Of a stretch of DNA of 32,181 bases, positions 5,284 to 25,576 are shown piece after piece. A program made the translations under genes and the position numbers. The stretch spans positions 1-32,181 of IMG/VR virus record IMGVR_UViG_3300029286_000165; one strand, 5' to 3'. The notes under the pieces are model-generated. The model was not told the DNA's origin. It did no database searches and worked only from the letters and a program-made list of their open reading frames with translations. The stretch's first letter is position 1, and every line of letters begins with the position of its first letter. The DNA comes from a virus.

Positions 5284-5491
5284 AGACATATTGAAAATAC
5301 CAAATAATACTACAAGTAATTATTGGTTAATTAGATTTTTCATTAAATTATTGTCTTGCCCATGTTGCGTAGCTAGCCATGTATTCTGGATTACTTATTT
5401 AATATATTTTGGTTCATTAATAGGGTTATGGTTATGTCCATTAGTTTTCTTTCTAACTTTCTTCGTTAAAAAATATACAAGTATTTTATGA
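5216..5491 (+). CDS. Small membrane protein with CPCC motif
   Basis: A 91-aa protein with about three hydrophobic segments: residues 3-23, about 38-65, and 67-85. It carries SCPCCVASHVFW at 47-58. A cysteine pair before a hydrophobic helix resembles DUF1360-like small membrane proteins ('LxCpxCxgfW'). It overlaps the end of the sigma-like gene by 68 bases from ATG 5216; an internal ATG at 5243 would shorten the overlap to 41 bases but cut into the first hydrophobic segment. It probably sits in the inner membrane; the role is unknown. Confidence 0.6.
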   Translation: MIEILIVGLMILVSIAWGVLVVEDILKIPNNTTSNYWLIRFFIKLLSCPCCVASHVFWITYLIYFGSLIGLWLCPLVFFLTFFVKKYTSIL

Positions 5492-5853
5492 ATTATGTAA
5501 ATGATAATGATTTAGTATATGAGATAATGTTATCGCAGGGCAAAGGTTTATTAACTAAGAAAGCTGAGAAAATGTTAATACTAATAGCTAAGAACGCTAT
5601 CTTAAAGAAGAGATCTTATTATCAAGAAACACAAGATTACGACGACTGTTATCAAGAAGGAGTTCTAATGTTATTATTAAATTGGAAAAAATTCAACCAT
5701 AAAAAATATTATTATGCCCTACCATACTTCACTGAAATATTTAAACGTGGACTAGCATTTGGTTATAATAAATCAGTTAATAAAAAAAATAGTGGAGTCA
5801 CACCTAGTTTTGTAAGATTAGATATTCTTGACCCAAAAAGTTCATCATTTTAA
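5488..5853 (+). CDS. Late sigma factor resembling T4 gp55
   Basis: This 121-aa protein resembles T4 gp55, the minimal late-transcription sigma factor, along its length. The N-terminus NYVNDNDLVYEI matches the gp55 'YVNNKELLxAI' start. After a helical segment comes DYDDCYQEGVLMLLLNWKKFN, like the gp55 'MIxDGIxxxIxxxxNFD' segment. YYALPYFTEIFKRGLAFGYNK corresponds to 'pxAYiTqaxfnAFxxRIKKE'. This is sigma region 2, which contacts the polymerase coiled coil and opens a TATAAATA-like -10. gp55-type factors usually work with a clamp-bound coactivator, and none is seen in this window. The comparison with gp55 is from memory. Confidence 0.65.
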   Translation: MNYVNDNDLVYEIMLSQGKGLLTKKAEKMLILIAKNAILKKRSYYQETQDYDDCYQEGVLMLLLNWKKFNHKKYYYALPYFTEIFKRGLAFGYNKSVNKKNSGVTPSFVRLDILDPKSSSF

Positions 5854-5859
5854 TATATA
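5848..5859 (+). promoter_or_regulatory. Candidate phage promoter motif, copy 3
   Basis: Exact TTTTAATATATA overlapping the stop codon of the gp55-like gene and lying 32 bases before the ATG of the 32-aa gene at 5892. The downstream bases TATAATTAGAGTATAAAAAATAA partly match copies 4 and 5. Confidence 0.5.
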
Positions 5860-5891
5860 TAATTAGAGTATAAAAAATAATCAATATTATT

Positions 5892-5990
5892 ATGCCGTTA
5901 AATAAAGAACCAGGTGAAGACAAAAATGCTTTTGTTGGTTGCTGTATTAAACATTATATAGATAAAGGTAGAGAACAGAATCAAAATTGA
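5892..5990 (+). CDS. 32-aa protein, possibly truncated
   Basis: A short frame beginning MPLNKEPGEDKNAF and ending DKGREQNQN. It resembles the start of a small phage protein seen in many genomes ('MPxPKxxxxExxxxFixrCixxxxxxxxxxdQxxAixxx'). The frame stops just where the conserved 'Q-A-I-A' part would follow. A second frame (IKIEDIKEFRKKCKKK) continues directly downstream, so a frameshift or decay is possible. It has a good promoter-like motif and A-rich leader, so it may still be translated. Confidence 0.45.
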   Translation: MPLNKEPGEDKNAFVGCCIKHYIDKGREQNQN

Positions 5991-6035
5991 AGATATTAAA
6001 GAGTTTAGAAAAAAATGTAAAAAGAAAATATAAAT

Positions 6036-6422
6036 ATGCGAGAAAATGAAATTGCGTTTATGAAGTTATTTGAGGAACAAATACTTCCAAATAGAAAAAA
6101 TGTTGGTATAGCCATACTTAAACAAGCAGCAGATTTAATTGGAATTGGAATTAACACTTCTTGTCGTTCTTGTGCTCAAAAATCAAGTATTGATTTACTT
6201 AATGCTTATAGTAGATTGACTCCAGCTTATAATATCTACAAAGATAATAAAAAAGAAGAAGTTCAATATACTCAAGTAGTTGAACCAAAACCAATTGATA
6301 ATGTAATGATAACTCAAACAACATATGATGTTGATATAAAAACTGGTGAGATTACTGAAACAGATGAAGTGATAATTAAAAGACCTATACCACCTGTTAA
6401 ATTGAAAAAAAATGAAATATGA
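6036..6422 (+). CDS. Hypothetical phage protein with CRSC motif
   Basis: A 128-aa protein from ATG 6036. Residues 1-65 are helical with CRSCAQKSSIDLLNAYSRL around positions 43-60. The pattern is familiar from Bacteroidetes phage genes between terminase and tail genes, but it has no function I can name. The C-terminal half is Pro/Ile/Val/Thr-rich and probably extended. The stop overlaps the next ATG (ATATGATG), indicating translational coupling with the frameshifted gene that follows. Confidence 0.6.
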   Translation: MRENEIAFMKLFEEQILPNRKNVGIAILKQAADLIGIGINTSCRSCAQKSSIDLLNAYSRLTPAYNIYKDNKKEEVQYTQVVEPKPIDNVMITQTTYDVDIKTGEITETDEVIIKRPIPPVKLKKNEI

Positions 6423-7140
6423 TGAAATTAAAGCACTATCAGTATATTAATACATTAGACGGTGGGAGTACTTTATACAACGATTATTTAATTAATTATT
6501 TTGAAGTTAGTAGAAACCAATCTTACGATAAAGTAATTGAAGATTTAAATAAAAAGATGTTTATTGAAATTAAAGATTTTAATAAAAATAAAGTAAAGGT
6601 TGGTGATAAAATGTTTATTGTTGAGAAAGATTTTTATGAATGTTCTTATGAGCAATTTTCTCGTCTTGATACTATATTAGCAGAAGAAAATAATACAGCC
6701 AATTTACATAAGTTAATTTCAATTTATTGTAGACCTAGAATATTTAACTGGAAGAAATTAAAATGGGACATAGAACCATTTAATTTAAAAAATCAGGAAG
6801 ATATTAGTGAATATCTGAAAGAGAATATGTTAATGGAAGATGCTCACGCTATTATGATTTTTTTTTGTCAAAACGTGAAACTATCTTTACAGAATATAAA
6901 TATTTATTGTTTGAACCAAAAGAAAAAGGACCAGACTTAGTATATCAAAAACAAATAGATGAAATAAATAAATTTTTTAGTTGGGACATATTAGCATTAA
7001 AAATGAGTAACGATAATCCTATATTAATGAGACAGATTTATGGCAGTAGGCTTAGAGATATATTAGATTTTATGGTAATTAATAAACAGAATAATAAATT
7101 AGAGGAGTGGAAAAATAGTAAAAACATAATAGCGATTTAA
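6419..7140 (+). CDS. Structural or chaperone-like protein made through an apparent -1 frameshift
   Basis: Two frames read as one 240-aa protein if the ribosome slips back one base at the run of nine T (6858-6866). The zero-frame codons ATT TTT TTT TGT contain a perfect T_TTT_TTT slippery heptamer at 6859-6865. After the slip the sequence continues IFFLSKRETIFTEYKYLL through to the stop at 7138-7140. Without slippage, a 173-aa product ends at 6940 with an unusual tail (CQNVKLSLQNINIYCLNQKK) that looks out of frame. The downstream frame has no ATG near its beginning, only TTG in the slip site. Programmed slippage is known for tail-assembly chaperones, but this gene is not next to the tape measure. 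A sequencing error or true mutation in the T run remains possible. Confidence 0.6.
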
Positions 7141-7637
7141 TGAGCGAAGTAGATAAGGTAATTATTAAATATGGAAATTCTGTTTCAGATGGAATGAAAT
7201 CTATTCTTATTGCTTATGATAAAGTAGCAACTGCCGATTTAGTTAGATCTATAAAAGTTAAATATAATTATAACACTAAAGAATTTGTTTGGCAGATGGC
7301 TAAACAAGGAGGTTATGTTTTAAGAGGTAGAAAGCCATATGGTTTGGGTACTAGAAATACTAAAAGAGGGGTTACTCAAATAAATAATAGATTCCCTAAT
7401 ATAACTGCTATTACAAACTGGATTAAAGTTAAAGGTATAGTACCCAAACCATTTGCTGGTAGTAAAAGAACAGTAACATTGAAACAATTGTCATATCTTA
7501 TAGCTAGGGGAATTGCTATTAAGGGAATAAAGCCTTTAGATTTTATATCAAAACCTATGCAGTTAGTCGATACTGAAAAATTTAGACAAGATATAGCAGA
7601 TGCGGCGGTTAAAGATTTAAAAAATAATTTAAAATAA
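7140..7637 (+). CDS. HK97-gp10-like head-tail / tail completion protein
   Basis: A 165-aa protein matching the gp10-like minor tail family by pattern: DLVRSIKVKYNYNTKEFVW, then KQGGYVLRGRKP, then ITNWIKVKGI, then SYLIARGIAIKGIKPLDFI. Relatives have 'sGRxPGxxPP…I..Wi..KGI…lAyxIaxxIhxkGix'. These proteins form the neck or tail-terminating ring. The start overlaps the preceding stop (TAATG). The next gene also overlaps by one base. Confidence 0.65.
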   Translation: MSEVDKVIIKYGNSVSDGMKSILIAYDKVATADLVRSIKVKYNYNTKEFVWQMAKQGGYVLRGRKPYGLGTRNTKRGVTQINNRFPNITAITNWIKVKGIVPKPFAGSKRTVTLKQLSYLIARGIAIKGIKPLDFISKPMQLVDTEKFRQDIADAAVKDLKNNLK

Positions 7638-8434
7638 TGGCTATTACATGTGTTGCTAAACCAAGTGAGTGGGCAAGAGTCTATGATTCTAATAGATGTA
7701 CTTATACTTTTAGTTCTGATAAATATACTGAATTAAATTATAATTTCTTAATAGAATTATATAAATATAAAACAGATGTTAGTGGCACAACAAGTGCAGC
7801 AAAAACATTAATTGGAACATTTAAAATGTACCCACTTGAAAATGGAACATGTGAATTTAACCCAACGTCAGTTTATAAAAATTATATATCATCAGATATT
7901 AATTTATCAGCAACCATATTAACGGACGCTGGAAATTCATTTGCTCAATTTGGAATGGTAGTGTATGATTATTATTCATCTGGTATAACATCTCCTGTTA
8001 AACAAGGAACACCTTATACCGAACCAGTTAGAGGAACTATTTATTATAATGGTTGTCAACAGGAAGTTCCATATGATTATGTACCATTAAATCATTTACA
8101 AGGTAATAATTTACAATGGGTAATGTCTGGAGATACTCAAACACTTGGTAACTTTTTAACTGATGCTACTGAATACAGATTAGATAATGAAGATGTAGCT
8201 TTTCTATATTTTTTATGTGAGTCTGGTAATCTACCAACAAAAATAAAATACACTTATTATTATTTACTTACTACTGGCGGTGTTCAAGTATCTATAGAAT
8301 CTGGAAATGATATAGATAGATTGATAGGGCTACCTAATGAATTCTTTAACGAAGAAAGTAGAGAAGCTTCAATGCCACAAACTAAAACATCACCAGCCAA
8401 TTATTCAGAAAGTGCGTCAATAGATTCAATATAA
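7637..8434 (+). CDS. Putative tail structural protein, beta-rich
   Basis: A 265-aa beta-rich protein, Tyr/Thr/Asn-rich without membrane segments. It begins MAITCVAKPSEWARVYDSN and includes LIGTFKMYPLENGTCEF and FAQFGMVVYDYY. The pattern recalls distal-tail or baseplate proteins of Bacteroidetes phages that are followed by a large 'Lxl-x-edexI' tail protein. Here it precedes two such genes. The last 25 residues are Ser/Ala-rich and polar. No catalytic motif is visible; the call rests mainly on position and composition. Confidence 0.45.
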   Translation: MAITCVAKPSEWARVYDSNRCTYTFSSDKYTELNYNFLIELYKYKTDVSGTTSAAKTLIGTFKMYPLENGTCEFNPTSVYKNYISSDINLSATILTDAGNSFAQFGMVVYDYYSSGITSPVKQGTPYTEPVRGTIYYNGCQQEVPYDYVPLNHLQGNNLQWVMSGDTQTLGNFLTDATEYRLDNEDVAFLYFLCESGNLPTKIKYTYYYLLTTGGVQVSIESGNDIDRLIGLPNEFFNEESREASMPQTKTSPANYSESASIDSI

Positions 8435-8448
8435 AATAATTAAAAATT

Positions 8449-9582
8449 ATGACATCAATACCACCAAAACCATTACCAATATTAGACAATGGTAAAAAAC
8501 AAATACCAGTTGTTTGGGTACCTCCAATTAGAACTTATGTTGCTTCAGGAGTTACACAAGATACTGAAATATCTTACGCCTACCCAGATACTAAAATGTG
8601 GTATTTCCCTATGTCTATGAGACATTTAAGAGAAACAGGATTAATTCCAACTGGAGTAACCTATGATAATTGGTTGTATTATAAGGTTGATTTAGTAGGT
8701 GGTGTTAATACACCTGAAATAAAAGATTATTGTCACATAGAAACAAACTACCCAGATTGGAACCCTTACTTACATTATAAAATATCAGAGTATGTTACTT
8801 ATCTGGGTTATGACTATTACACATTAATAGATTTACCTGGGACTAATTTATGTCCACCAGATTACCCTTTGTGGTGGAGATGGGTAGAAAATTCAGGCAC
8901 CCCTGTTTATATGTCAGGTGGCACTGCTTTATTCCAGGATCAGTATGGTGGTTGGGATTTAGTTTCAAGTGGCGGAACAGTTTTAAGTCAAGGTAATGTA
9001 CATAGAGATGGTTTAATATGGAGAGCTGAAATGATTGGGCTACCAGTTTATTATTCTATAAGCGCAGCCGCAGTTAATACGGAACATATATTAAATAACA
9101 AATCTTTTTATGTTTATCGAAAAGAAAAATGTGACCAATATAGTAAATGGCAATTATTTTGGTTAAACCCTCACGGTGGTTATGACAATTTTACGTTTGA
9201 TAAAAAAATTGATATTGATTATAAAATAGAAAGATCAACTTATAAACGAAGAACCCCTGTTGGAGGACCTACTAGTTTTAATAGTTATTTTGGTGGGGAA
9301 AATATATTCAACACTAATGTTAGAGAAGAAATAACATTGAGGACTAGTTTATTAACACAAAAAGAAAGTCAGTTGATGATTCAATTATGTCAATCTCCAA
9401 AGGTTTATGTAATGAAAGAATATCAATATGATACGTCAGACCCAAGTAATTTATATAAGTACGCGACCCCTTATATTATAGTGACTAATGAAATTAAATA
9501 TGAACAAAAACAGAATTCAAAGGAAGTATATTATGAAGTGAAAATTAGACCATCTAACGAAAAAATCATTCAAAGTTATTAA
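8449..9582 (+). CDS. Tail / baseplate protein with a CBM5/12-like module
   Basis: A 377-aa protein. Residues about 102-147 follow the chitin-binding type 5/12 pattern: PDWNPYLHYKISEYVTYLGYDYY, a Pro-containing loop, then PLWWRWV. This corresponds to 'WxxxxxYxxGdxVxyxGxxYxxxxxxxxxxPxxxxxxW'. The C-terminal part (FWLNPHGGYDNFTF, EEITLRTSLLTQKESQLMIQLCQSPKVYVM) resembles tail proteins of Bacteroidetes phages that end in a packed beta domain. It may contact host surface sugar while part of the tail tip. The 1573-aa gene begins at the overlapping stop codon (TAATG). Confidence 0.5.
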   Translation: MTSIPPKPLPILDNGKKQIPVVWVPPIRTYVASGVTQDTEISYAYPDTKMWYFPMSMRHLRETGLIPTGVTYDNWLYYKVDLVGGVNTPEIKDYCHIETNYPDWNPYLHYKISEYVTYLGYDYYTLIDLPGTNLCPPDYPLWWRWVENSGTPVYMSGGTALFQDQYGGWDLVSSGGTVLSQGNVHRDGLIWRAEMIGLPVYYSISAAAVNTEHILNNKSFYVYRKEKCDQYSKWQLFWLNPHGGYDNFTFDKKIDIDYKIERSTYKRRTPVGGPTSFNSYFGGENIFNTNVREEITLRTSLLTQKESQLMIQLCQSPKVYVMKEYQYDTSDPSNLYKYATPYIIVTNEIKYEQKQNSKEVYYEVKIRPSNEKIIQSY

Positions 9583-12500
9583 TGAAAAGTGAATTAAAAG
9601 TTTTATATAAACCTGAGATAGTTGTACAAAATTCTAATTTCAATCAGTACACGGATTATTGGACAAGCCAGATAACGGGCACTAGTACAGATTATACGAT
9701 ATTATCTGGTTGGACTTGGACAAACGGACAGATGTGGCATGATGTTGGAAACACTTATCAAATATGGCAAGTATTAAAGCCATCTAGTATACCAGAAAGA
9801 CAATATAAAATTGAATTTCAAGCAACCATTTTAACTGGTGGTATTATGTGTAATCTATTCGGAGAGACAGGTACATATTTTACAACATCAGGCTTTCATC
9901 AAGAAATAGTAACTATCACTACTTTATCGGGTGTATTAAGAGAAGATGAAATAGTCTTTACGCCTACTATAGATTTTAATGGGTGGATTACTAATATAAG
10001 AGTATTGAGTATAATAACAAAAGTAGATGTTTTAGATTTATATGAAGATGAAGATATATCTTTAACATTCCAAGTTAGTAATGGATTATCTAATATAAGT
10101 AGTTCTTATTCAAAAACTATAAAATTACCAGGTACAAATAGCAATAATAATATTATAAATAATTTAAATGTAGAAAGTAATTTTGTAGATACAACTAATT
10201 ATGCTGATAAAAATGTTATTTTTTTTAGTAAGAAATTAGATTGTATATTCTATAACGATAGTATTGAAGTATTAAGAGGGTATTTAATAATTGAAAATTG
10301 TAATAAGATAAATGGTTTAATAGAATATGAAGGAACTATTTATTCAAATAATAGAAATTTTGCTGATGTATTAGGAGATAAATTAATACGTGGAAATTAT
10401 GACTCTAATAATGATATTAAAACATTTGGAAAATATAATCACACTTTTAATTGGACTAATATAGAAAATAGTTGGAAATTAATATATGATACATGGGATC
10501 CAAATTATGGTTATCATGTAGATGATTATATTTCTTATAACGAGATAAACTATGTTTGTATTTTTGATGTCCCAGGACCTTATTTATACCCGAATATAAA
10601 TACTACTTATTGGGCAGTAACACAGGAAAATTATTATGATACTCACACAGGATATTATTACCCATTAATTGATCATTCTGGAATACCAAAAACAACTGAT
10701 TATATTCGTTTAGAAAATTTTAAACCATCATTCTATGCTAAAGAATTATGGGACGAAATATTTAACGCAGCAGGATTTTCATATACATCAACATTTTTAA
10801 ATAGTGTATCTTTCAAAAATTTAGTTATACCACACCCAAACGATATATTTATAAATGAAAACGAATATTATGATAAATTTAACGTAGGTTTAAATTCAGG
10901 AATAACTTTAAATAATGATATTAGCGGTTATAAAAATCAAGTAATAGATTTTAATAAATATGATGGCACATATTATTATAATGATAATAATGTTTATAAT
11001 GCTGGATACTGGACAGTAACTAGTTCAGGAGTATTTAATTTAAATTTTGAGATAAAATATTCACTCTATGTTAGTGGAACAACAACAGTAGGATCACCAG
11101 GTCCAGATCCATCATCATATCAAAATGATAGATTAATAAAAATATATTTACAATTAGCCAAAAGAAGAACTAACGGAGAATATGTTGTAATATCAAACGA
11201 TACTAAAGAAATAATATTCGATCAAAATACAATTAACACTTGGTTAATAACAGAAGACGATTTTATAGGAGTCGCTGAAAGCGTTAATCTATATAAAAAT
11301 GAACAAATTTTCTGTTATTTAGGATTTGAAACATTAAACACCAACTTATATGTTTATGTTAATGGCAGTTTAGCTAGTACGACTTGGTGGCATTTTGGAT
11401 TTGATATACTTCCATCAATAGACATATCTCAAGTTAATTCATGTTTTAATAATGAATTAGTTTCAGTTAATTATTATCTAGAAGATCAAACTGTATATGG
11501 AGAAAATATGCTACCAGTTGATATGGCTCAAATAGATTATATTAAATCTATATCTAATAAATTTAATTTAATATTTACTGAAAATCCAGATAAACCTAAT
11601 GATTTTATAATAGAACCATACGATATTTTCTATACAGGAACTACATATATCGACTGGAGTGATAAAATTAATAGAGCAAAAGAGATTAGAATAGAAAGAA
11701 TACCTTATTTAATTGATAGCGCAATAGAATTTTTATTCAAAGAAGATGGAAATGACGAACTATTAAGTAAATATTTAGAAAAAACAAGCCATAATTTTGG
11801 TGATTATTTAATTAAAAACCCATATTTGAGCGAGAAAACAGAGAAAATAAACGACGTTTTTTCATCAACTATGATGGACACTATAGCGAGTTCTCCATTT
11901 ATTTCATCAAAAATATATAATTTAAACGACGAATTTTGCGATAACCTACCAACAGACTCAGATTATAATACAAGAATATTATATAGAAAGGTTGTAAATA
12001 ATACTGGTGGAGTTTCATTACCTGTATTAGGGTTTGATCCTCTTTGGGACACTGGATTAACATTTACAGACAGTGGTAATACATTATATCTATGTGGAAT
12101 GATAAGTAAGAGCAGAGTACCTTATGCTGGTTATTTAGATGATCCAATTACTCCTACATTAGATTTAAATTATGGTTCTGTTAAGTATAATTATGTAGAT
12201 GTAACGACTCAAAATAATTTAACGTGGGTTTATTGGCGTAATAAATTATCTTTATATTTAAACCCGAACTCAAAGAAGATAACTTATTCGATAAGATTAA
12301 ATATTTCTGATATTAGTACAATTGATTTTAGAAAAAAAATAATGATTGATAATAATCTTTATTTAATAAGTAAAATAGTTGATTGGAATAATGGAATAGA
12401 TTGCAGGGTTGAAATGTTCCAATTAAATACTTATGTAGATTATGGTTTTTTCACGATAGATGAATGGAAAGTTCCAAGTACTTTAACACAAACAAATGAA

Positions 12501-14303: not shown

Positions 14304-14315
14304 AAATAATAAAAT

Positions 14316-14843: not shown

Positions 14844-14858
14844 TGGGAGAATTTTAAT

Positions 14859-15956: not shown

Positions 15957-15974
15957 ATTAAAACAATATATATA

Positions 15975-16220
15975 ATGAAAGAACTAATAGATAATACCTT
16001 TAAGAATATAAGTGGAATTAAGAAAATAAAAAATCATACTTTAATTATTAATTCTGACGATATATATTATATGAAAGCTTATTATAGAAGAATAAAACAA
16101 TATATATCTTATAAGACTTGGGAAAATATTGTTATTAATTATTCAATAGAAACAATGGAAGATATATTTACATCAGGAGATATATTACTTGATGCGATAA
16201 TAAAAAAATATGAAAAATAA
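15975..16220 (+). CDS. Small hypothetical protein before the tape measure
   Basis: An 81-aa helical, Lys/Ile/Tyr-rich protein (MKELIDNTFKNISGIKKIKN … DAIIKKYEK). Its stop overlaps the tape-measure start (TAATGG). In other tailed phages the genes just before the tape measure encode tail-assembly chaperones, often with a frameshift; no second overlapping frame is seen here. The role is unknown. Confidence 0.5.
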   Translation: MKELIDNTFKNISGIKKIKNHTLIINSDDIYYMKAYYRRIKQYISYKTWENIVINYSIETMEDIFTSGDILLDAIIKKYEK

Positions 16221-19200
16221 TGGCTACATCATCAGATATTTACGCTAAACTTAAAATAGATACAAGAGAATTCGATGGATCTTTAAGAGGTATTAAGAAA
16301 GAAATGGCAACTCTTAAAGGTTTAATTGGTAGCAATATTATATCAAGAGAAGACGATTTACAATTAAAAGCCAGATTTGGTAATATAAAAGATCAATTTG
16401 ATGATATACGTTTATCTTCTCAAAATATAGCTGAAGAAGATGTATTTGGTAACGTTGCTAGATTCGCTGGTGTAGCATCACAGGCTGTCGCTGGTTTAAC
16501 AGCTACAATGTCTTTACTTGGAATAGAAAGTGAAAAAGTTGGTCAAGTTGAGAAATCAATACTTCAATTTATGGCTATTGGTAACGCTTTACAAGCATTA
16601 GCTGATAGTAGAAGATTAAAAGATTTAGCTTTAATTTATGCAGCTAGATTAAAAGATTGGATGTTTACTAAATCTACAGCAGTTGCTGATACATCGACCG
16701 GAGCTGGCGGTGGTGGCGGAACAGGAGGGACTAAAATATTAGACACTTCTGCTGTGGCTAACGCTAACGCTGCAGCTAACATATCGCAAGCATCGAGTAT
16801 TAATAATGTTTCTACCGCTATTGTAGCTCAAAATGAAATTATTACTCAAAATATAGTAGCTCAAGATGGACTTACAGTTTCAATTATGGGATTAGAATCT
16901 CAAATTAAAAAAGAAAATGTTTCTATAATCCAAACACAAATTGAATTAAAGCAATTAAATCTTATTATTACTGATGCTGCTACTACAAATGAAGTTTTGA
17001 ATAATTCTTTAGAAAGAGAAATATTATTAATTAATAGATTGGATGCTTCTATGGCTAGAAAAGCACAATTAACTAATACTGTAAATGAATTAAAAGCTGA
17101 ACAAATAGCAGTATCTAATGCTGAAGGAGCTACAATATCTAAAAATACAGGCTTAATTGCTGCTCAAACAGCTGCTCAAGGAACTAATGCAACAGTAACA
17201 ACTGCAGCATCAACTGCTTATAAAGGGTTTGTTACTTGGACTAACGCTGCTTCTGTGTCTATTATGAATTTTACAAAATCTTTATTATTAAACCCAATAT
17301 TTATATTTATTGGCACTTTAGCAGCAGTTGGTGTAGCTGCTTGGAAATTGGGTAAAGTGTTAGCAGGAACTGCAGATGATTTATACAAATATAGCAAGGG
17401 TATTAAATCTGCATCAGACGCAAATAAAGAATTTCAAAAATCTATTGAAGATATGCTAGGTGATATGGCTGGTGTTAATGATAAAATAGCAGTTATCACA
17501 GGAGGTATGAGTGAATCACAGGCTAAAAGAAATGAATTACATAGAAAATATTGGACTGAATACAAAAAAGATGAAGAAAAATTATTAAGCGAATTACGTG
17601 AATTAGAAAGAAAAAGACAATCTGGTGAAATTGAAAGCGATACAATTTTTTATGCTTTAAAAAATTCATTAAGAAAGAACTTTGATAACGCAGATGAAAT
17701 TAGAAGAAGACGTTTAGCAGATGAAGAAGCTTTATTGTTGGCTGAGGAAAAGAAAACTAAAGAAGAAAAAGCAAAAGCTGATGCTGTAAAAGCCAAAGAA
17801 GATTATAATAATAGGGTTAAAGTTGAAAAAGAAGTATTAGAAAAAATAATTCAATTAAGAAGAGAATCACAAAAAACTATTAGAGAATTAGAATCTTCTA
17901 CTATATCAACATCAACTAAAACTGGTAGATTAATAGAAGAAAGAAAATTGAATGCTCAATTAATTGAGATAGAAAAAGAATATATCGAAAAACAAGGCAA
18001 ACTTGTAACTAAAAAAGGAACAATGGAAGATTATACTAGTCTTATCAAAGTTAGAAAAGATTATTATAATGAAGTTAATAATATAATAACTGAACAAACA
18101 GTAGTAGAATTAAAAAAGGCTGATGATAAAAAAAGAGAAGATATAAAAGTATTAGAAAATACTTACATCGAAAGAAAAAATATCATAAAGAAAAATTTAG
18201 AAGAAACTGAATCTACCATTAAAAAAATAAAAAGTTCTTTAGAAACTACTACCAATAAAGAAGAAATTGTAGTTCTAAAGAAATCTTTAAGTGAATCTCA
18301 ATCAGTTAAAAAAGAATTAAATACACAATTAATAAAAGAACAAGAATCTTTTAATACTAGTTCTTTAAATATAACAGAAGATTTTGAAAATAAAAGAATT
18401 ATAATAAATAAAGATGCTGACATTAAAATAATAGAAAATACTACTAAATTCTATGACGAAATTTTAAATTTAGACGATTTAAGATTATCTAATGCTAAGA
18501 ATAATACTGAAATATTAATGAGGTTGAGAGAGAAGGAAACAGACCCATCAACAAGAAAACAATACTCAGAAGATATTATAAGTTCAATACAAATTCAAAG
18601 ACAAGAGTTAATTAAATTAAATAAAGACGAAACAAATAGAATTAATTTATTACCAGATAGCGAAGAAAAAGTATTGAAATTAACTGACGCTAATATTAAA
18701 TTAAAAATGAGTTTAATGGATTTGGATCAAACCATTAAATCTCTTAACGAAACTCCAATGCCTTTTTCAGATTGGATAAATAAAGAAAATTGGATTGATC
18801 CTATCAAAGGACTAATGGATAATTTAGGAGCTTTAACCCAACAAGCAGCAGACGGAATTATTACAATAATGAATTTAAATCTAGAATCTCAAAGAACTAT
18901 GTTAGATTCCTATATAAACGATATAGAAGACTCAACTGATGCTGCTTTATCTAACGTTGAAAAATTATACAAGTATAACTTTATAACCACTGAGCAATAT
19001 GAGAAGAAAAAAATACAATTAGAAGAACAAAAAAATAGTAAAATAAAAGCTGCTAGGGAAGAACAATTTAAAAAAGAACAAGAAGCAGCAGTTATAATGG
19101 CAGTTATACAAGGTGCGCTAGCAATTGTACAGGCATATGGTCAATTAGGACCAATTGCTGGAACTATTGCAGCATTATTAATTGCTGGAGTTACGATAGC

Positions 19201-20374
19201 CCAAATATCTACTATTCAATCTCAACCAGTTCCTGAATATGAAACTGGTGGTTTAATAGAAGGACCATCGCATAATCAAGGTGGAATAAAGATGAATGCT
19301 CCAAGTGGAAAAGTGGAATTAGAAGGCGGGGAATATATTATTAATAAAAATACAGTCAAACAACCTGGAGTCAAACAATTATTAGAAGATATAAATAATG
19401 ATAAAATAAATGCAGTAGATGCTAATAAAATTGTAGATAACATTAGCGAAACAAATAAAATAACAGATAATAAATCTCTAACTACGAGTGAAATAAATAA
19501 AGTTATAGACAATAAATCCTTAACGACTACGAATGAAATGAATAATATCGCAGATAATAAATCTCTAACTACGATCGAAACAAATAAAATAACAGATAAT
19601 AAATATCTAACTACGAGTGAAATAAACAATATAATTGAGAGTGTTAAAAATAATAAATCTTTAAAAGTAGAAGAGACAAATAAAATTGTTGATAGCATTA
19701 AAAATAATAAATCTTTAACTACTATTGAGATAAGTAAAGTTATAGATAGTGTTAAAAATAATGATATTATTAATAGAAATACTACTATACAAAATAATTT
19801 ATTATCTAGTGAAACGAATAAGATATTAGATAAAATTACTATTTTAGAAAATGGTGGTTATATCAAAGGACCATCTCATATTGAAGGTGGAGTGAAAGCT
19901 ACTACACCAGATAGAATAGTTGAATTAGAAGGTGGTGAATATATAATTAATAAAAATACAGTTAAAAAACCAGGTATTAAAACATTATTAGATAAAATTA
20001 ATAGAGATTATGTTTCTGAAAATAGTTTAAGAATTATTAATACAATTAAAAATAGTGAAATATCTAATAATAGATCTATTTTTGAAAATGGTGGTTATAT
20101 CTACGAACAAGGTGGAGTGATTGAAAATAAAAAAAGTGAAATTGTATATTATACTAATAGATTTGAAAATGGTGGTTTAATACCAGATGATATATATAAC
20201 AATATATCAAAACAACAAAGCACTATAATAAATAATTATACTACAACAATGGACGTCGAAGAATTAAAAGGAGTTATTAGGGAAGTTACAAGTATTCCAG
20301 TTACTGTTTTAGAAACTGATATTACAAGAACTCAAAAAAGAGTTGCTGTAATTGAACAAAAATCAAGTTGGTAA
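16220..20374 (+). CDS. Tail tape measure protein
   Basis: The 1384-aa protein has long helical, Lys/Glu-rich stretches, a hydrophobic segment at about 350-385 (NPIFIFIGTLAAVGVAAW) and a second at about 955-1000. The C-terminal region carries two copies of a module typical of tape-measure ends: GGLIEGPSHNQGGI … ELEGGEYIINKNTVKQPG near 1010-1060 and GGYIKGPSHIEGGV … EYIINKNTVKKPG near 1213-1260. Shorter FENGG repeats follow. At about 0.15 nm per helical residue the protein suggests a tail near 200 nm (a rule of thumb). Between the two modules lies a degenerate repeat built on NNKSLTT-E-NKI. It is chaperoned into the tail tube during assembly; the tail tube gene is 2.8 kb downstream. Confidence 0.85.
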   Translation: MATSSDIYAKLKIDTREFDGSLRGIKKEMATLKGLIGSNIISREDDLQLKARFGNIKDQFDDIRLSSQNIAEEDVFGNVARFAGVASQAVAGLTATMSLLGIESEKVGQVEKSILQFMAIGNALQALADSRRLKDLALIYAARLKDWMFTKSTAVADTSTGAGGGGGTGGTKILDTSAVANANAAANISQASSINNVSTAIVAQNEIITQNIVAQDGLTVSIMGLESQIKKENVSIIQTQIELKQLNLIITDAATTNEVLNNSLEREILLINRLDASMARKAQLTNTVNELKAEQIAVSNAEGATISKNTGLIAAQTAAQGTNATVTTAASTAYKGFVTWTNAASVSIMNFTKSLLLNPIFIFIGTLAAVGVAAWKLGKVLAGTADDLYKYSKGIKSASDANKEFQKSIEDMLGDMAGVNDKIAVITGGMSESQAKRNELHRKYWTEYKKDEEKLLSELRELERKRQSGEIESDTIFYALKNSLRKNFDNADEIRRRRLADEEALLLAEEKKTKEEKAKADAVKAKEDYNNRVKVEKEVLEKIIQLRRESQKTIRELESSTISTSTKTGRLIEERKLNAQLIEIEKEYIEKQGKLVTKKGTMEDYTSLIKVRKDYYNEVNNIITEQTVVELKKADDKKREDIKVLENTYIERKNIIKKNLEETESTIKKIKSSLETTTNKEEIVVLKKSLSESQSVKKELNTQLIKEQESFNTSSLNITEDFENKRIIINKDADIKIIENTTKFYDEILNLDDLRLSNAKNNTEILMRLREKETDPSTRKQYSEDIISSIQIQRQELIKLNKDETNRINLLPDSEEKVLKLTDANIKLKMSLMDLDQTIKSLNETPMPFSDWINKENWIDPIKGLMDNLGALTQQAADGIITIMNLNLESQRTMLDSYINDIEDSTDAALSNVEKLYKYNFITTEQYEKKKIQLEEQKNSKIKAAREEQFKKEQEAAVIMAVIQGALAIVQAYGQLGPIAGTIAALLIAGVTIAQISTIQSQPVPEYETGGLIEGPSHNQGGIKMNAPSGKVELEGGEYIINKNTVKQPGVKQLLEDINNDKINAVDANKIVDNISETNKITDNKSLTTSEINKVIDNKSLTTTNEMNNIADNKSLTTIETNKITDNKYLTTSEINNIIESVKNNKSLKVEETNKIVDSIKNNKSLTTIEISKVIDSVKNNDIINRNTTIQNNLLSSETNKILDKITILENGGYIKGPSHIEGGVKATTPDRIVELEGGEYIINKNTVKKPGIKTLLDKINRDYVSENSLRIINTIKNSEISNNRSIFENGGYIYEQGGVIENKKSEIVYYTNRFENGGLIPDDIYNNISKQQSTIINNYTTTMDVEELKGVIREVTSIPVTVLETDITRTQKRVAVIEQKSSW
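19440..19760 (+). repeat. Degenerate NKSLTT repeats in the tape measure
   Basis: About six imperfect units of roughly 60 bases encode variations of 'NKITDNKSLTTSEINKVI'. They lie between the two conserved C-terminal modules and look like a recently expanded, low-complexity linker. Such repeats could tune tail length or processing. Confidence 0.6.
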
Positions 20375-20391
20375 AAAATAATTTAATAAAC

Positions 20392-21198
20392 ATGTTAAAA
20401 AAACTACTCAAAATTAGGGAACTTAAAATAGACGATACAGAAGAAACTGGAGTTATCGCGATTAGTATGGTAGACGCTCCAGCTATCGAGGAAAATTTTA
20501 TATACTTTGCTAAACATAGACAAGAAATATGGAAACCATCTGATATAAAAGAAGATGATTTAGACGTGTTATATAACTGGACATTAGGTGATGACGAACA
20601 TTGTCCTTCTTGCATAGAGTGGGTGTCTAAAGGTCCAAAACCTTTGAGATATTGGATTAATAACGCTCTTCCGAGAGTTCCATATAGTGATAATATTATA
20701 TTAGCTGGCATTCCAGTTGGAAAGGGGTGGGTTGGAGAAATAAAAGAACCTGAAAATACTCCATATTATAACACTTTATGTAGAGATGCTTGTAAATGTC
20801 ATCTTACGGCAGCAGATACTAATATGAGATTGGATAAAAGAAATTTCAATGTAGAATTTAAAATAGAAAACGTTGAGAAGAAAGAGATAGTTGGATTAGT
20901 TTTGAGAAGTGGCCAAATGATATATCGTCACAACGTAGGAGATGGCTTCCCAGGTTATGTATATTTTTCTAGAGAAACAGTAAGAAATTCTTTTAGAAAA
21001 TTCGGATTCAATAGAAATATTACCTTTCAACATGTTCAAAATAAAACCGGTAGCGCAATTATGATGCAATCTTGGTTGGACGAAAGCGAAACAGAAACAA
21101 GATGGATGGTGAAATATAAAATCATAGATACTGACTTATGGGAACAAATTAAAAAAGGGGTAGTGAAAGGGTATTCAGTCGAGGCATCATTTCACTAA
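20392..21198 (+). CDS. XkdF-type capsid maturation protease with Cys-rich insert
   Basis: A 268-aa protein from ATG 20392; the frame extends to an upstream TTG, but the A-rich leader and ATG fit better. The N-terminus (GVIAISMVDAPAIEENFIYF) and C-terminal half (EKKEIVGLVLRSGQMIYR, YVYFSRETVR, NITFQHV with H214, ESETETRWMVKYKI, VKGYSVEASF with S262) fit XkdF-type proteases, with His and Ser as likely catalytic residues. Between them, residues 51-145 carry a block with five Cys (71, 74, 130, 134, 136; EHCPSCIEW … CRDACKCHLT). This resembles the tail of MuF/SPP1-gp7 minor head proteins. It lies between the tape measure and scaffold genes. Confidence 0.7.
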   Translation: MLKKLLKIRELKIDDTEETGVIAISMVDAPAIEENFIYFAKHRQEIWKPSDIKEDDLDVLYNWTLGDDEHCPSCIEWVSKGPKPLRYWINNALPRVPYSDNIILAGIPVGKGWVGEIKEPENTPYYNTLCRDACKCHLTAADTNMRLDKRNFNVEFKIENVEKKEIVGLVLRSGQMIYRHNVGDGFPGYVYFSRETVRNSFRKFGFNRNITFQHVQNKTGSAIMMQSWLDESETETRWMVKYKIIDTDLWEQIKKGVVKGYSVEASFH

Positions 21199-21564: not shown

Positions 21565-21587
21565 TTTTAATATATATAGATAGTAGA
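21565..21587 (+). promoter_or_regulatory. Candidate phage promoter motif, copy 4
   Basis: TTTTAATATATATAGATAGTAGA, identical over 23 bases to the sequence at 25554-25576. It lies 50 bases before the scaffold start. It would drive the scaffold, capsid and tail-tube genes up to the terminator at 23749-23775. Confidence 0.6.
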
Positions 21588-21614
21588 ATGAACAAAAAAT
21601 AAATAATAAAATTT

Positions 21615-22223
21615 ATGATTAATAAACTTTTGAAAATTCTTAAAATTAAGTTTATTGGCGAAGTAATTTTAAAAGATGGAACTCCTTGCGTTTTAGATGG
21701 AGATCTAGCAATTGGAGTAGGTATAAAAGTGCAGACTCCAGATGGAATGATAGATTTACCAGATGGGAATTATGAATTAGAAACTGGTCAAATTATTTCA
21801 GTTGAAAATGGAAAGATAGTGGATATAACAGATCAAATTGACACAGAAGAAATACCAGACGATGATTCATTAATACCTACCGATATGAAACAAGATGTAC
21901 CAGTAGAAGAAATACCTATTGTGGAAACAGAAGTAAAAGATGAGATAGTTAAGACCATTGAACTCGTTGAAAACTTGGAACCTATTATAGAAACTAACCC
22001 ATATGATATTCTTTTAGAAAAAATTACATCAATAGAAACTAAATTAGAAAATCTACCGACCTATACGGACGAATTAACAAAACTGAAAGGTGATGTTGAT
22101 TTTATTTTAGGAAAAATGACATTATCAACTGAGTTGAAAAAGTCAAAACCTATTGATGAGTCTACCTCTATTGTTGATTCAAGAATAGAACTTATCAAGA
22201 GTATTAGAAATACTAAAAAATAA
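21615..22223 (+). CDS. Scaffold-like protein
   Basis: A 202-aa acidic protein. The N-terminus has a beta domain with DGTPCVLDGDLAIGVGIKV and LPDGNYELETGQIISVENGKI, seen in proteins preceding the capsid gene of many Bacteroidetes phages. The middle (about 75-125) is Glu/Asp/Pro/Val-rich and extended. The last 65 residues are predicted helical with SIETKLENLPTYTDELTKL. Position directly before the capsid gene, size and charge fit scaffold. The protease two genes upstream would remove it during maturation. Confidence 0.65.
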   Translation: MINKLLKILKIKFIGEVILKDGTPCVLDGDLAIGVGIKVQTPDGMIDLPDGNYELETGQIISVENGKIVDITDQIDTEEIPDDDSLIPTDMKQDVPVEEIPIVETEVKDEIVKTIELVENLEPIIETNPYDILLEKITSIETKLENLPTYTDELTKLKGDVDFILGKMTLSTELKKSKPIDESTSIVDSRIELIKSIRNTKK

Positions 22224-22233
22224 TTAAAAAATT

Positions 22234-23142
22234 ATGGCATTCAATGTAAGCGCATTAACAGGATGGGTAAACGAAAATAGTCAAACGCTTTTGACCCAGG
22301 CTTTATTGGGAAACCAAACGGCTCAGTTGATTACAATTTTACCAGGAGTGAAATACAAACAAACACTCAAATATCTTGATACTGATTTGCTTTTACAAGC
22401 AGGTGGTTGCGGATACGCAACAAGTGGAACAACTACTCTTTCAGATAAAGAGGTTTCAGTGGTTTCATTAAAAGTTCAAGAAACACTTTGTCCAGAAGAT
22501 TTGAATACTACTTCAATGCAGTTATCAATGAAACCTGGTTATAACACATCTATTCCATTCGAACAACAATGGAGTGATAGAAAAGTAAAACAGCTTCAAA
22601 CAAAAGTTGAAAATATGATTTGGAGTACTACTACAAGTTCATCTCTTAAATGTGAAGGTTTAATTCACGCAATGGAAGACGATTCTACTGTAAATGATTA
22701 TACTTTTAATCCATGTGCAACTGGTTTAACATATTCAAATTGGTTAACAGCTGTTTATGGTATGTTTAATCTTCTTTCCCCAGAGGCTAAATCAAAAACA
22801 GATTTAACTTTATTTGTTGGATTTGATACATTTAGTTTAATAGTTCAAGCGTTAGTAGTTGGTAATTTATATCATATTGATATGAGTGGAAATTCAGGAG
22901 TTGCTCCTTTTATATTCCCAGGCACATCAATAAAAGTGACTCCAATTAAAGCCCTTGACGCTAGTTGTCATATGGTGCTTTCACCAGCAAGCAATCTTAT
23001 TTTAGTTACTGATTTACTTTCAGAAGAAGATAGAATGAAAATTTGGTGGAGTGAAGATAATCAAGAAGTTAGATCAACTATTGATTTTAAAATTGGTACC
23101 TCATATTACTGGGGAAATGAAATTGTGCTCGCACAAGCATAA
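22234..23142 (+). CDS. Major capsid protein
   Basis: The 302-aa protein begins VSALTGWVNENSQTLLTQAL, then LPGVKYKQTLKYLDTDLLLQ, GGCGYATSGTTTLSDKEVSV and VQETLCPEDLN, which follows the usual start of Bacteroidetes phage capsid proteins. The remainder has the mixed alpha/beta composition expected of an HK97-like fold, with FPGTSIKVTPIKAL and NLILVTDL near the end. It lies 10 bases after the scaffold-like gene and 22 before the tail tube gene. G+C and codon use are higher than in neighbours, consistent with strong expression. Confidence 0.75.
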   Translation: MAFNVSALTGWVNENSQTLLTQALLGNQTAQLITILPGVKYKQTLKYLDTDLLLQAGGCGYATSGTTTLSDKEVSVVSLKVQETLCPEDLNTTSMQLSMKPGYNTSIPFEQQWSDRKVKQLQTKVENMIWSTTTSSSLKCEGLIHAMEDDSTVNDYTFNPCATGLTYSNWLTAVYGMFNLLSPEAKSKTDLTLFVGFDTFSLIVQALVVGNLYHIDMSGNSGVAPFIFPGTSIKVTPIKALDASCHMVLSPASNLILVTDLLSEEDRMKIWWSEDNQEVRSTIDFKIGTSYYWGNEIVLAQA

Positions 23143-23164
23143 TAAAAAAATAATAATATAAATT

Positions 23165-23701
23165 ATGGCATGTTTAAGATTTAGTACAACAATAGCAGAT
23201 GCATGTAGAGACGCTCAACCAGGACTTACCAAGATATTCTTGGCTAATTACAGTGATTTGGTATCTTATGAATTAAATGCAGCTGGTACAGCAATAACTG
23301 GTCTCACAATGAGTGGGACAACTGGAACTAACGCAGCTTTTTACGAAGTATCACTTAACAAGCAAGTTGGTTCAGTGCTAGATACACCAACAATCAATAT
23401 AGCTAATGGGGTTGCAGTTTCTAAACCAAAGATTAGCGGTTTTGTCCAAGGTATGGATGAAGATGTTATGTTGATGTATAAGTCCCTATTACAAGCTGAT
23501 GTAGTCGGGGTAGTAAAAACAATCAATGGTAGATATTACGCTGTTGGTTTTGATAATGGATTAACTATGATTGCTGGTTCTTATGGAACTGAAGCAGCTA
23601 GTGATGGTAAAGCTGGTTTTACTTTCGAACTCGAAGGTATTGAATCAAAACCATTGGTAGAAATTACTGGTTTAGCTTTTGAAGCTACATACGTAGTCTA
23701 A
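23165..23701 (+). CDS. Major tail tube protein
   Basis: A 178-aa protein starting with a Cys-containing N-terminus (FSTTIADACRDAQPGLTKIFLANYSDL). This is followed by alternating beta segments (ITGLTMSGT, FYEVSLNKQVGS, TPTINIANGVAVSKPKI), a central helix (MDEDVMLMYKSLLQA) and a final sheet with KTINGRYYAVGFDNGLTMIAGS and GFTFELEGIESKPL. The order fits tail tube proteins of Bacteroidetes siphophages. It ends just before a strong terminator, the normal end of a highly expressed head-tail operon. Confidence 0.65.
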   Translation: MACLRFSTTIADACRDAQPGLTKIFLANYSDLVSYELNAAGTAITGLTMSGTTGTNAAFYEVSLNKQVGSVLDTPTINIANGVAVSKPKISGFVQGMDEDVMLMYKSLLQADVVGVVKTINGRYYAVGFDNGLTMIAGSYGTEAASDGKAGFTFELEGIESKPLVEITGLAFEATYVV

Positions 23702-23882: not shown

Positions 23883-23886
23883 AAAA

Positions 23887-23918: not shown

Positions 23919-23934
23919 TGTATGTTAATATTTT

Positions 23935-24171
23935 TTACATTATAAATAAAACATACATCGATAAAAGAAAACCAACTCCAGTTAATATTAAATATAAGGC
24001 TCCGGTAGTAGCGTTGAATCCAGTAGGAGCTAATTGTTGATTTAGAGTTTGATCAAATGGTTTATCATCAATTTTAAAACTTCCACCGCACACATGACAT
24101 TTATAAGTTCCGCCAAAATTTAAGCCTGTGTGTAAAGTTTTACAACTTGGGCAATTTACATTAGCTAACAT
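23935..24171 (-). CDS. Zinc-ribbon membrane protein
   Basis: A 78-aa protein. The first 35 residues form a zinc ribbon with CPSC (7-10) and CHVC (25-28). A linker follows, then a hydrophobic helix near the C-terminus (about 57-77, TGALYLILTGVGFLLSMYVLF). This suggests a membrane-anchored metal-binding protein. Unusually for this window, a full AGGAGG lies nine bases before the ATG, and a TATCTTTG promoter box lies 47 bases upstream. Cellular function unknown; it is part of the leftward cassette. Confidence 0.65.
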   Translation of the reverse strand: MLANVNCPSCKTLHTGLNFGGTYKCHVCGGSFKIDDKPFDQTLNQQLAPTGFNATTGALYLILTGVGFLLSMYVLFIM

Positions 24172-24180
24172 AATTTGTTT

Positions 24181-24186
24181 CCTCCT
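24181..24186 (-). promoter_or_regulatory. Strong Shine-Dalgarno site (AGGAGG)
   Basis: Minus-strand AGGAGG, nine bases before ATG 24171. Most genes in the window have no Shine-Dalgarno sequence, so this marks the zinc-ribbon gene as having a different translation style or origin. Confidence 0.7.
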
Positions 24187-24218
24187 ATTTTTTAAGTTTA
24201 TTTATCGATTTTGTCTTA

Positions 24219-24265
24219 CAAAGATACTACCTTTTATCGAAATAAAAAAATTTTAGACCAACAAA
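24219..24265 (-). promoter_or_regulatory. 47-bp repeat A with leftward TATCTTTG promoter box
   Basis: Matches 25499-25545 at 46 of 47 bases (C at 24238 versus A at 25518). Read leftward it ends with TATCTTTG (24226-24219), the Bacteroidetes -7 box; the -33 region is a T run rather than TTTG. It lies upstream of the zinc-ribbon gene. Confidence 0.65.
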
Positions 24266-24269
24266 GCAG

Positions 24270-24800
24270 CTAATTAGCTCCCTTTTCGTTTTTATATAGA
24301 TCACGTGGATCTTGATTAAATAAGTGTATCATTATATTTTTAGGTAGGAAATTATTACAAACATACCAACATGTGAAATTAGGTCTATTACCATTAAAGC
24401 TTACTCTTTTATCCATTATTATAAATTGTACATCAAATTTATTAAATATATTTATTGTTTCTATAGAATTTAACATAGTCATTGGTAACAATAAAGCGAA
24501 CGGCTTGTTATAAGTTAAACATTTTAATATTGTTTCATTTTTAATACTAAACGCAGGGTTCGTTATTATACAATCAAAATTAAAATCTGGAATATAAGTT
24601 AAGAAATCTTCTCCATTATTTATATGAGTATAATGTACAGTATGTCCTAACTCTATAAATTTTTTAACATAATTACTTTTTTTTGTATCAAATGGACACC
24701 ATATAATAGATTTTTTTTTTAAATAAGGAACGATAATTTCTACTGCATATAATGGAGTATAATATTCATCTTGTGTGCTGTGTGAAAATTTTGTTCTCAA
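24270..24800 (-). CDS. N6-adenine methyltransferase-like protein
   Basis: A 176-aa protein. DEYYTP at 11-16 and IIWCPFDTKKSNYVKKF at 32-48 are typical of phage adenine methyltransferases that start 'DexxTPxxxxxxixxyl … iwcPFd'. CIITNPAFS at 77-85 is the motif-IV equivalent (NPPF/NPPY variant, here NPAF). PFALLLPMTML follows, then NFTCWYVCNNFLP. The frame opens at TTG 24800, overlapping the preceding gene by 35 bases; no in-frame ATG fits. It may modify phage or host DNA against restriction. The Ala in NPAF could weaken activity. Confidence 0.6.
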   Translation of the reverse strand: MRTKFSHSTQDEYYTPLYAVEIIVPYLKKKSIIWCPFDTKKSNYVKKFIELGHTVHYTHINNGEDFLTYIPDFNFDCIITNPAFSIKNETILKCLTYNKPFALLLPMTMLNSIETINIFNKFDVQFIIMDKRVSFNGNRPNFTCWYVCNNFLPKNIMIHLFNQDPRDLYKNEKGAN

Positions 24801-25494
24801 ATTTAAATACTATCATTTTTTGAATTCTACTGGTGTAAGTTTTAATATCAATTAAATTAAAATTATACATCGAATCAGTTATATATTTAATTAAATTATT
24901 GTTACAATATTTATTATTAATATTTTGAACTGTTATGAAAAAATTATTTATTTTGCTTATATTGGTTAGTATTAAATCCTTTTCGATGTTTTTACAAAAA
25001 TAAGAACAAGAATCATAAAAAACTATATCAAAATCTAAATTAATTTTATTATATTTTACGCATATATTCTTGCTTTTATATTTTAATTCTTCGTAAGTGT
25101 TTAATATTTTCCGATTCTTATCAACGCATGTTATATCAATATAATTATTATCTATTAGCCATTTCACATCATTACCACAATATCCACAGAATGTTAATAT
25201 TTTACTATTTTTATTTAATTTATTAAATAACCATTCGTATATAAAATCTTTATTGAAAGATATAATTTTATCAAATTTCTCTTTTATTATTCTAGACGGT
25301 TTCCCTGTGCCGTTTGAAATATATTTATAATTATTAAAAAACCAATCTGGTAAATTTTCAATATGCCTAAATGTATTACACCTACAACTCTCATATGTAT
25401 ATCCAGTATCCGAAGATATTAATTTAATAAGATCCTTAGTTACCCATTCATCATTTTCTACAATTCTATTTTTTAAAGATTCATTTATAGTCAT
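24766..25494 (-). CDS. SAM-dependent methyltransferase-like protein
   Basis: A 242-aa protein. About 90 residues of basic/aromatic N-terminal region (ENDEWVTKDLIKLISSDTGY … GKPSRIIKEKF) with a possible DNA-binding helix pair precede a Rossmann-like part. This part has KILTFCGYCGNDVKWLI (motif I), ITCVDKNRKIL (motif II, acidic end) and FDIVFYDSC (motif IV position). The glycine pattern of motif I is irregular. The ATG at 25494 lies only four bases from a TATCTTTG promoter box, so the mRNA may be leaderless. The gene overlaps the adenine methyltransferase-like gene, forming a likely pair. Confidence 0.5.
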   Translation of the reverse strand: MTINESLKNRIVENDEWVTKDLIKLISSDTGYTYESCRCNTFRHIENLPDWFFNNYKYISNGTGKPSRIIKEKFDKIISFNKDFIYEWLFNKLNKNSKILTFCGYCGNDVKWLIDNNYIDITCVDKNRKILNTYEELKYKSKNICVKYNKINLDFDIVFYDSCSYFCKNIEKDLILTNISKINNFFITVQNINNKYCNNNLIKYITDSMYNFNLIDIKTYTSRIQKMIVFKFENKIFTQHTR

Positions 25495-25498
25495 ACGT

Positions 25499-25545
25499 CA
25501 AAGATACTACCTTTTATAGAAATAAAAAAATTTTAGACCAACAAA
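25499..25545 (-). promoter_or_regulatory. 47-bp repeat B with leftward TATCTTTG promoter box
   Basis: Second copy of the 47-bp repeat (see 24219). TATCTTTG lies at 25506-25499 on the minus strand, and the methyltransferase-like gene starts at 25494. In Bacteroidetes the transcript begins a few bases after this box, so it would begin at or next to the ATG. Confidence 0.65.
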
Positions 25546-25553
25546 CTTGTCAA

Positions 25554-25576
25554 TTTTAATATATATAGATAGTAGA
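25554..25576 (+). promoter_or_regulatory. Candidate phage promoter motif, copy 5
   Basis: TTTTAATATATATAGATAGTAGA, identical to 21565-21587. It lies 42 bases before the portal start and would restart rightward transcription after the leftward cassette. Confidence 0.6.

Follow-up and report, generated by a model that had tools for sequence, protein, structure and literature searches.

What reads an A+T-rich word that recurs ahead of the gene units of a small virus genome, and does the virus encode the reader itself? The question is raised by a 32,181-base stretch of viral DNA (71% A+T; hereafter the window), which is the entire IMG/VR record IMGVR_UViG_3300029286_000165. It contains five copies of the 12-mer TTTTAATATATA along with an open reading frame (ORF), 5488-5853, whose product resembles gp55, the late sigma factor of phage T4. 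Intergenic DNA amounts to 1257 bases of the window and is 79% A+T; since end repeats were not detected, the record may be a fragment. The explanation favoured overall, and held with good confidence, is that of a gp55-family sigma factor paired with the promoter that it reads. Phages with this sigma clade very likely use the 12-mer as a promoter element, and its copies in the window are likely, judging from sequence comparison, to be read by the gp55-like protein. Direct recognition of the 12-mer by the sigma, and late expression of the genes behind it, would follow from this pairing.

5488..5853, plus strand: gp55-family late sigma factor of the sigma region 2 type, 121 residues, assigned by family profile, PHROG family of relatives and predicted structure.
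1540..1551, minus strand: candidate late promoter core TTTTAATATATA of the leftward unit 1516-88, 23 bases ahead of the ATG of a 55-residue ORF at 1516.
5848..5859, plus strand: candidate late promoter core TTTTAATATATA, heading the tail-gene unit 5892-21198 (first gene a 32-residue ORF at 5892) and overlapping the sigma stop codon.
21565..21576, plus strand: candidate late promoter core TTTTAATATATA ahead of the capsid unit 21615-23701.
25554..25565, plus strand: candidate late promoter core TTTTAATATATA ahead of the portal unit 25596-31988.
1906..1917, plus strand: fifth copy of TTTTAATATATA, within ORF 1884-2582 just past its start codon.

The original prediction had named these five places and a chance expectation of about 0.2 copies; all five copies are found, and dinucleotide shuffles of the window agree with a mean of 0.25 (maximum 3), none of 100 reaching five. 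When only the intergenic DNA is modelled, by a second-order Markov chain, the mean falls to 0.06 and 0 of 2000 simulations attain the observed three wholly intergenic copies. With one mismatch allowed, the count of eight is ordinary (18 of 100 shuffles attain it), and the signal thus lies in the exact 12-mer; the reversed word, equal in composition and serving as control, is found twice, neither time in intergenic DNA. Four of the five copies end 2-45 bases ahead of a same-strand start codon, a zone comprising 2.5% of strand positions. Their proximity to start codons, likewise part of the prediction, is borne out by measured gaps to the ATG of 23 (1540-), 32 (5848+), 38 (21565+) and 30 (25554+) bases, and the likeness of the 21565 and 25554 copies, put at 23 bases, extends to 24 (23 from the motif start and one preceding base). 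The 1906 copy is probably a coincidence. The position of one promoter directly 3' of the sigma gene may also be coincidental, since such adjacency is found at only 4 of 30 and 2 of 46 sigma loci of relatives. Scans for sigma-70 promoters and for terminators returned no more than shuffled sequence did.

Taken alone, the product of ORF 5488-5853 matches sigma region 2 below the Pfam cut-off (E 8e-4) and 0 PHROG families. A profile built from 12 relatives, on the other hand, finds T4 gp55 (7d7c_F) at E 2.6e-8, with the next match at 0.31, and 10 of the 12 family members, though not the window member itself, match PHROG_234 (late sigma transcription factor). The structure predicted from a 40-row alignment has a predicted local distance difference test score (pLDDT) of 83 and its best match in the PDB is gp55 (Z 13.3, root-mean-square deviation 1.9 over 100 residues), other sigma region 2 structures following from Z 10.1; the Foldseek E-values against the PDB are weak (best 0.02), and the Z values are a second evaluation of the same list. 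The model consists of four helices up to residue 102 and a low-confidence tail, region 4 being absent. On sequence profile and modelled fold, then, ORF 5488-5853 is a gp55-family sigma factor, and the resemblance originally proposed is upheld at the level of family and of fold. T4 gp55 binds the sliding clamp through a hydrophobic, acidic C-terminal motif. The relatives have a conserved C-terminal tail like SLDSxNDGxGxHN[IF], and the window sigma ends in LDILDPKSSSF; as it is without that tail, tethering to a clamp may have been lost. No homologue of gp45 or gp33 was recognised in the window with Pfam PF02916 and PF16805, which among 10 records match T4 only and miss other T4-like phages.

Relatives of this sigma are widespread among phages. 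A tblastn search returned 28 phage records, and identity is 53% in LR756501, 44-50% in LR756502, LR745206 and LR756504, 38% in LR756500, 34-36% in the Lak phages and 26-33% in pT24, PAU, XacN1 and two Chryseobacterium phages, where the protein is annotated as a late transcription sigma factor. With a profile from closer alignments, relatives were found encoded in at least 331 IMG/VR stretches; a scan of IMG/VR with the single protein gave no match, and an alignment of 12 rows proved too divergent for this purpose. No relative, and hence no link to a host, emerged when bacterial and archaeal genomes were scanned. In a tree, the window sigma falls within the LR756501 clade (support 100/99), where it pairs with the sequence L158, a pairing of two long branches that may be false. 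LR756501 and its kin are Mahaphages, the clade to which the five genomes above 634 kb are assigned, with predicted Bacteroidetes hosts, in the available text of PMC7162821.

The distribution of the 12-mer follows that of the sigma clade. Against the reversed control, copies number 64:7 in LR756501, 48:6 in LR756502, 46:1 in LR745206 and 30:6 in LR756504. Further sigma carriers have 8:3 (LR756500), 5:10 (Lak-C1) and 5:9 (Lak-A1), and the remote gp55 carriers 2:1 (pT24) or 0:0 (PAU, MA9V-1, XacN1 and MA9V-2). Five sigma-bearing IMG/VR contigs chosen by size have 10:1, 12:2, 7:1, 12:3 and 15:1. Among five other phages the counts are 1:0 in phi14:2 and 0:0 in crAss001, phi10:1, T4 and RAP44, and all 10 records picked for window-like portal or terminase genes, including that of Nonlabens phage P12024S, are without the word. 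In three genomes copies overlap on both strands (LR756502 at 79800, LR756504 at 229193 and LR756500 at 77822), and these might be single-site bidirectional promoters.

Within the relatives the word is as narrowly placed as it is abundant. In LR756501, 57 of 64 copies are intergenic, although intergenic DNA makes up 6.9% of the bases, and 54 are no more than 100 bases ahead of a same-strand start; across 460 kb of LR745206, 33 of 36 are intergenic and 31 of 36 are ahead of starts. Ranked by pre-start concentration among A/T-only 12-mers, TTTTAATATATA comes first of 1602 in LR756501 (49 of 64 copies pre-start in this ranking) and first of 1495 in LR745206 (29 of 36). In a survey of IMG/VR loci, 78 of 154 being retained after removal of overlaps, 21 of 33 copies in the window-like sigma clade end within 60 bases of an ATG (control 1 of 9), as do 30 of 35 at the other loci (control 2 of 10). 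The avoidance of gene interiors, which the prediction had offered as a check on the motif, is thus what the relatives display.

The distances between motif and gene also bear on where transcription starts. They are two-peaked, at 4-8 and about 14-33 bases, and frequently 4-5 before the ATG, a pattern not seen with control A/T 8-mers. At sites 14-45 bases from the gene start, an A stands at +6 in 87% and at +7 in 91% of 102 sites in LR756501, and at +5 in 81% of 69 sites in LR745206, 96% of 31 in LR756500 and 90% of 66 in Lak-A1 (with the core AATAAATA). This conserved A at +5 to +7 (81-96% of sites) would be the transcription start, and by its register the window starts are predicted at 5865, 21582 and 25571. 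At the 4-5-base class the ATG itself occupies the start-site position, so that the corresponding mRNAs would be leaderless; in that register the core spans -13 to -6. The host-type -7 element of Flavobacterium johnsoniae similarly lies 4-5 bases from the start site in the available portion of PMC6847099.

The T4 late promoter has the consensus TATAAATA. The eight-base core of the 12-mer, AATATATA, differs from it at two positions, of which one, A at -13, is among the T4 variants listed in the available text of PMC2988020. Judging from that source and the accessible part of PMC7892883, T4 resembles the window in two respects: gp55 is small and restricted to region 2, and the late promoter is a single -10-like A+T-rich element with no -35. 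T4 differs in that the window core has T at -9 plus a TTTT flank, in that the window carrier is siphovirus-like with a host that is probably a Bacteroidetes bacterium, and in the many sites 4-5 bases ahead of an ATG among relatives of the window sigma. The best-placed core is AATATATA in LR756501 (185 of 290 intergenic) and in LR745206 (161 of 231), not AATAAATA or TATAAATA, the latter not being concentrated ahead of genes (ranks 84 and 67 of 256, respectively). In Lak-A1 it is AATAAATA (87 of 150 intergenic), not AATATATA (81 of 346). The Lak gp55-like protein (35% identical to the window sigma over 93 residues) thus goes with a promoter that is concentrated ahead of genes and has A at +5 and +6, as at sites of the window clade, but that retains the A at -9 of T4, TTTTAATATATA not being enriched. 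The Lak core equals the T4 A(-13) variant, and the Mahaphage core departs from that variant at -9 only. The -9 base is A in T4 and Lak, and T, with a TTTT flank, in the Mahaphage clade. The Mahaphages share with the window a sigma 44-53% identical and the same 12-mer ahead of genes, and differ from it in their genomes of 634-735 kb and unrelated virion genes; no description of a promoter class was found in the available text of PMC7162821 on these phages. Nor was one of this class found in the open-access literature accessible in full or in part, subscription papers and preprints being outside that scope.

A second class of promoters, of host type, heads a gene set of its own within these genomes. 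The Bacteroidetes host promoter (TTTG at -33 and TAnnTTTG at -7 in the part of PMC6847099 available) has a 4-5-base spacing to the start site as short as that of the 12-mer; it differs in its -7 sequence and in its -33 element, present in the same phage genomes. TTTTAATATATA does not contain the TAnnTTTG of sigma-ABfr, and its sites in the relatives are without TTTG at -33, whereas host-type TATATTTG sites in LR745206 carry TTTG at that spacing. The -33 element is absent at 102 and 88 TTAATATATA sites in relatives, and in LR756501 these sites have a weak TGA 11-13 bases upstream of the 10-mer. The motif-headed and host-type gene sets barely intersect: 76 and 31 genes share one, 57 and 53 share none. 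PHROG scans covered 51 of 76, 40 of 57 and 47 of 84 genes, short genes and those crossing tile edges being dropped. Among the families listed, LR756501 has terminase, baseplate wedge, tail fibre, tail protein, peptidase and PhoH behind the motif, and LR745206 head decoration, peptidase, UvsX, Nudix and a helicase-loader-like protein; behind host-type promoters are found DNA ligases, RNase H, polynucleotide kinase, phosphoesterases, two peptidases and an endolysin. The skew of the motif-headed set towards virion genes is plain in LR756501 and weaker in LR745206. In the window, the division runs between strands, the rightward virion units having the 12-mer and the leftward genes at 23935-25494 having TATCTTTG:

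25499..25506, minus strand: host-type -7 element TATCTTTG, 4 bases ahead of the ATG of leftward gene 24766-25494.
24219..24226, minus strand: host-type -7 element TATCTTTG ahead of leftward gene 23935-24171, with 30 bases upstream that nearly match those of the copy at 25506.

The surrounding host-type promoters (24219-24256 and 25499-25536, minus strand) are nearly identical over about 38 bases. In LR756500, another word, GTAAATATAATA, occurs in 29 copies, 25 of them intergenic and mostly directed away from genes (22 pre-start, on the opposite strand); it is a possible further promoter class.

Taken together, these patterns suggest the following course of events. The protein encoded at 5488-5853 would bind the host RNA polymerase core and steer it to promoters formed by a single A+T-rich -10-like element, TTTT-AATATATA, with no -33 element, and transcription would begin at the A some 5-7 bases past it. 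A single copy of the 12-mer would head every rightward virion unit (tail, capsid and portal), as well as the leftward unit that ends at 88, with the opposite-strand genes between capsid and portal using host-type TAnnTTTG promoters. Sigma and promoter would constitute a pair conserved in the Bacteroidetes Mahaphages and present here, possibly by acquisition from the Mahaphage pool, in a siphovirus-like phage whose virion genes are unrelated to theirs. The notion of a phage late system built of motif and factor is thereby strengthened by the clade-linked enrichment and the fixed distance to an A, its elements of recognition and lateness remaining at the level of inference; the opposite-strand host-type promoters, the Mahaphage link, the leaderless transcripts and the sister phage considered below were not part of the original prediction.

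Several observations weigh against this explanation. One of the five window copies is intragenic (1906, in ORF 1884-2582), as 7 of the 64 in LR756501 are not intergenic; the remote gp55 carriers (PAU, pT24, XacN1 and the two Chryseobacterium phages) have only 0-2 copies and Lak is not enriched; the genes behind the motif are not all virion genes (UvsX, helicase-loader-like protein, Nudix; PhoH); and the window sigma is without the GxxHN[IF]-like C-terminal tail of its relatives. A further one comes from the sister phage, IMG/VR 3300029286_000138 (35 kb), the closest to the window by virion genes, with a portal 57% identical. No gp55 gene was detected in its contig by a profile that was positive on the window and PAU, and yet, of the 16 gene starts there that have an intergenic gap in front, 8 carry ATATATA elements, homologous genes among them, some with a similar downstream TAGATAG. 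Part of the element therefore predates the sigma or does not need it, and the sister promoters may be ancestral and read by another factor, unless its gp55 lies outside the contig. In the sister, homologues of 4696-5283 and 5216-5491 are adjacent and that of 6036-6422 is also present, and the place of the sigma is taken by a 58-residue ORF and a phage lysozyme (Pfam E 5e-35). This draws attention to a further window gene:

4696..5283, plus strand: putative second transcription factor, with a helix-turn-helix-like C-terminal stretch, near the terminase and kept in the sister.

The late promoter might accordingly be read in the window phage by the product of ORF 4696-5283, the gp55-like gene being a recent passenger or helper, as the sister keeps the former (33-34% identity) together with its ATATATA elements and is without a detected gp55. 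We consider this unlikely. The protein has no firm family, profile comparisons with gp55 and with the P12024S sigma were negative, the search of solved structures was weak, searches for related sequences were empty and the single-sequence model (pLDDT 40) is unusable. Moreover, the TTTTA flank of the Mahaphages is present at each of the four window promoters, no exact 12-mer occurs in the sister, and the Mahaphages combine that 12-mer with gp55 but have, as far as searched (LR756501 and parts of three other huge phages), no homologue of 4696; both the flank and this distribution favour the gp55-like protein as the reader. A less probable proposition still is that the element is a host-sigma promoter, an A+T-rich operator or an UP-like element, unlinked to any phage sigma: it is pure A/T in 79% A+T intergenic DNA, and early genes need the host RNA polymerase. 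The host-type elements, however, head their own gene set with a -33 element, A+T-rich phages that do not have this sigma contain few copies of the 12-mer or none, and a fixed A at +5 to +7 suits a start site and not an operator. Mere chance, to which the ordinary one-mismatch count and the two reversed copies might be thought to point in 71% A+T sequence, is the least credible of all in the face of the shuffle and Markov statistics, and is refuted by TTTTAATATATA being independently the top word in two Mahaphages.

Beyond the favoured pairing of gp55-family sigma and promoter, one may tentatively picture a portable module, in which sigma and promoter code travel together, the -9 base and TTTT flank following the sigma clade. 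A small siphovirus-like phage could have adopted this module by adding TTTT to ancestral ATATATA promoters, running it without a phage sliding clamp and uncoupled from replication. Such a scenario is possible, if rather doubtful at present.

The window phage is probably a small, siphovirus-like phage of a Bacteroidetes bacterium. Large terminase, portal and serine protease families were identified among its proteins; its nearest IMG/VR relatives by portal are the sister and 3300028581_000303 (57% identity each), and P12024S (Inhavirus) has remote relatives of its portal (24%) and major capsid (22%). P12024S differs in lacking the 12-mer and in having its own sigma-70 region 2 protein, missed by the gp55-like profile; a recurrent TTCCGTTAATA-like word stands directly ahead of the ATG at its virion-side genes (upstream of 3031, 5412, 23961 and 25201). 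Thirty-two window proteins, excluding the repeat protein 27962-30040 and with only the first 1139 residues of the longest, were compared with LR756501, LR745206 (460 kb), LR756500 (400 kb) and Lak-A1 (400 kb). Only four matched: the sigma, ORF 88-1428 (27%), a response regulator (26%, LR756500) and, weakly, the terminase (24-25%, LR756500 and Lak-A1), from which it follows that the window shares with the huge phages the sigma and not the virion genes. ORF 88-1428 (minus strand), whose unit is headed by one 12-mer, has no family match, its 27% identical counterparts being ORFs in LR756501 (525561-526610) and LR745206; motifs picked out in it by eye (LDIRSSFP, HDSIYF) look polymerase-like, but Pfam, PHROG and PDB gave this reading no support. 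The response regulator (27610-27948, plus strand) is a lone receiver domain inside a virion unit (Pfam E 3e-14) with its relative in LR756500. Collagen-like GTSG/GSSG repeat genes lie at 12000-14000 and 28000-30000, and GGAACATCAG, a 10-mer typical of such repeats, has 17 copies in the window and 215 in LR756501.

In the literature found, the timing of late genes in the largest phages and in phages of Bacteroidetes is largely undescribed. A promoter class tied to a sigma clade would make late genes readable from genomes, and would place a sigma/promoter pair of this kind outside T4-like virions. The clades also offer a natural series of sigma factors and promoters differing at one base, with which the reading of DNA by gp55 may be probed. 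Finally, late mRNAs without a leader, in phages whose bacterial hosts belong to a group without Shine-Dalgarno sites, would bear on how translation proceeds.

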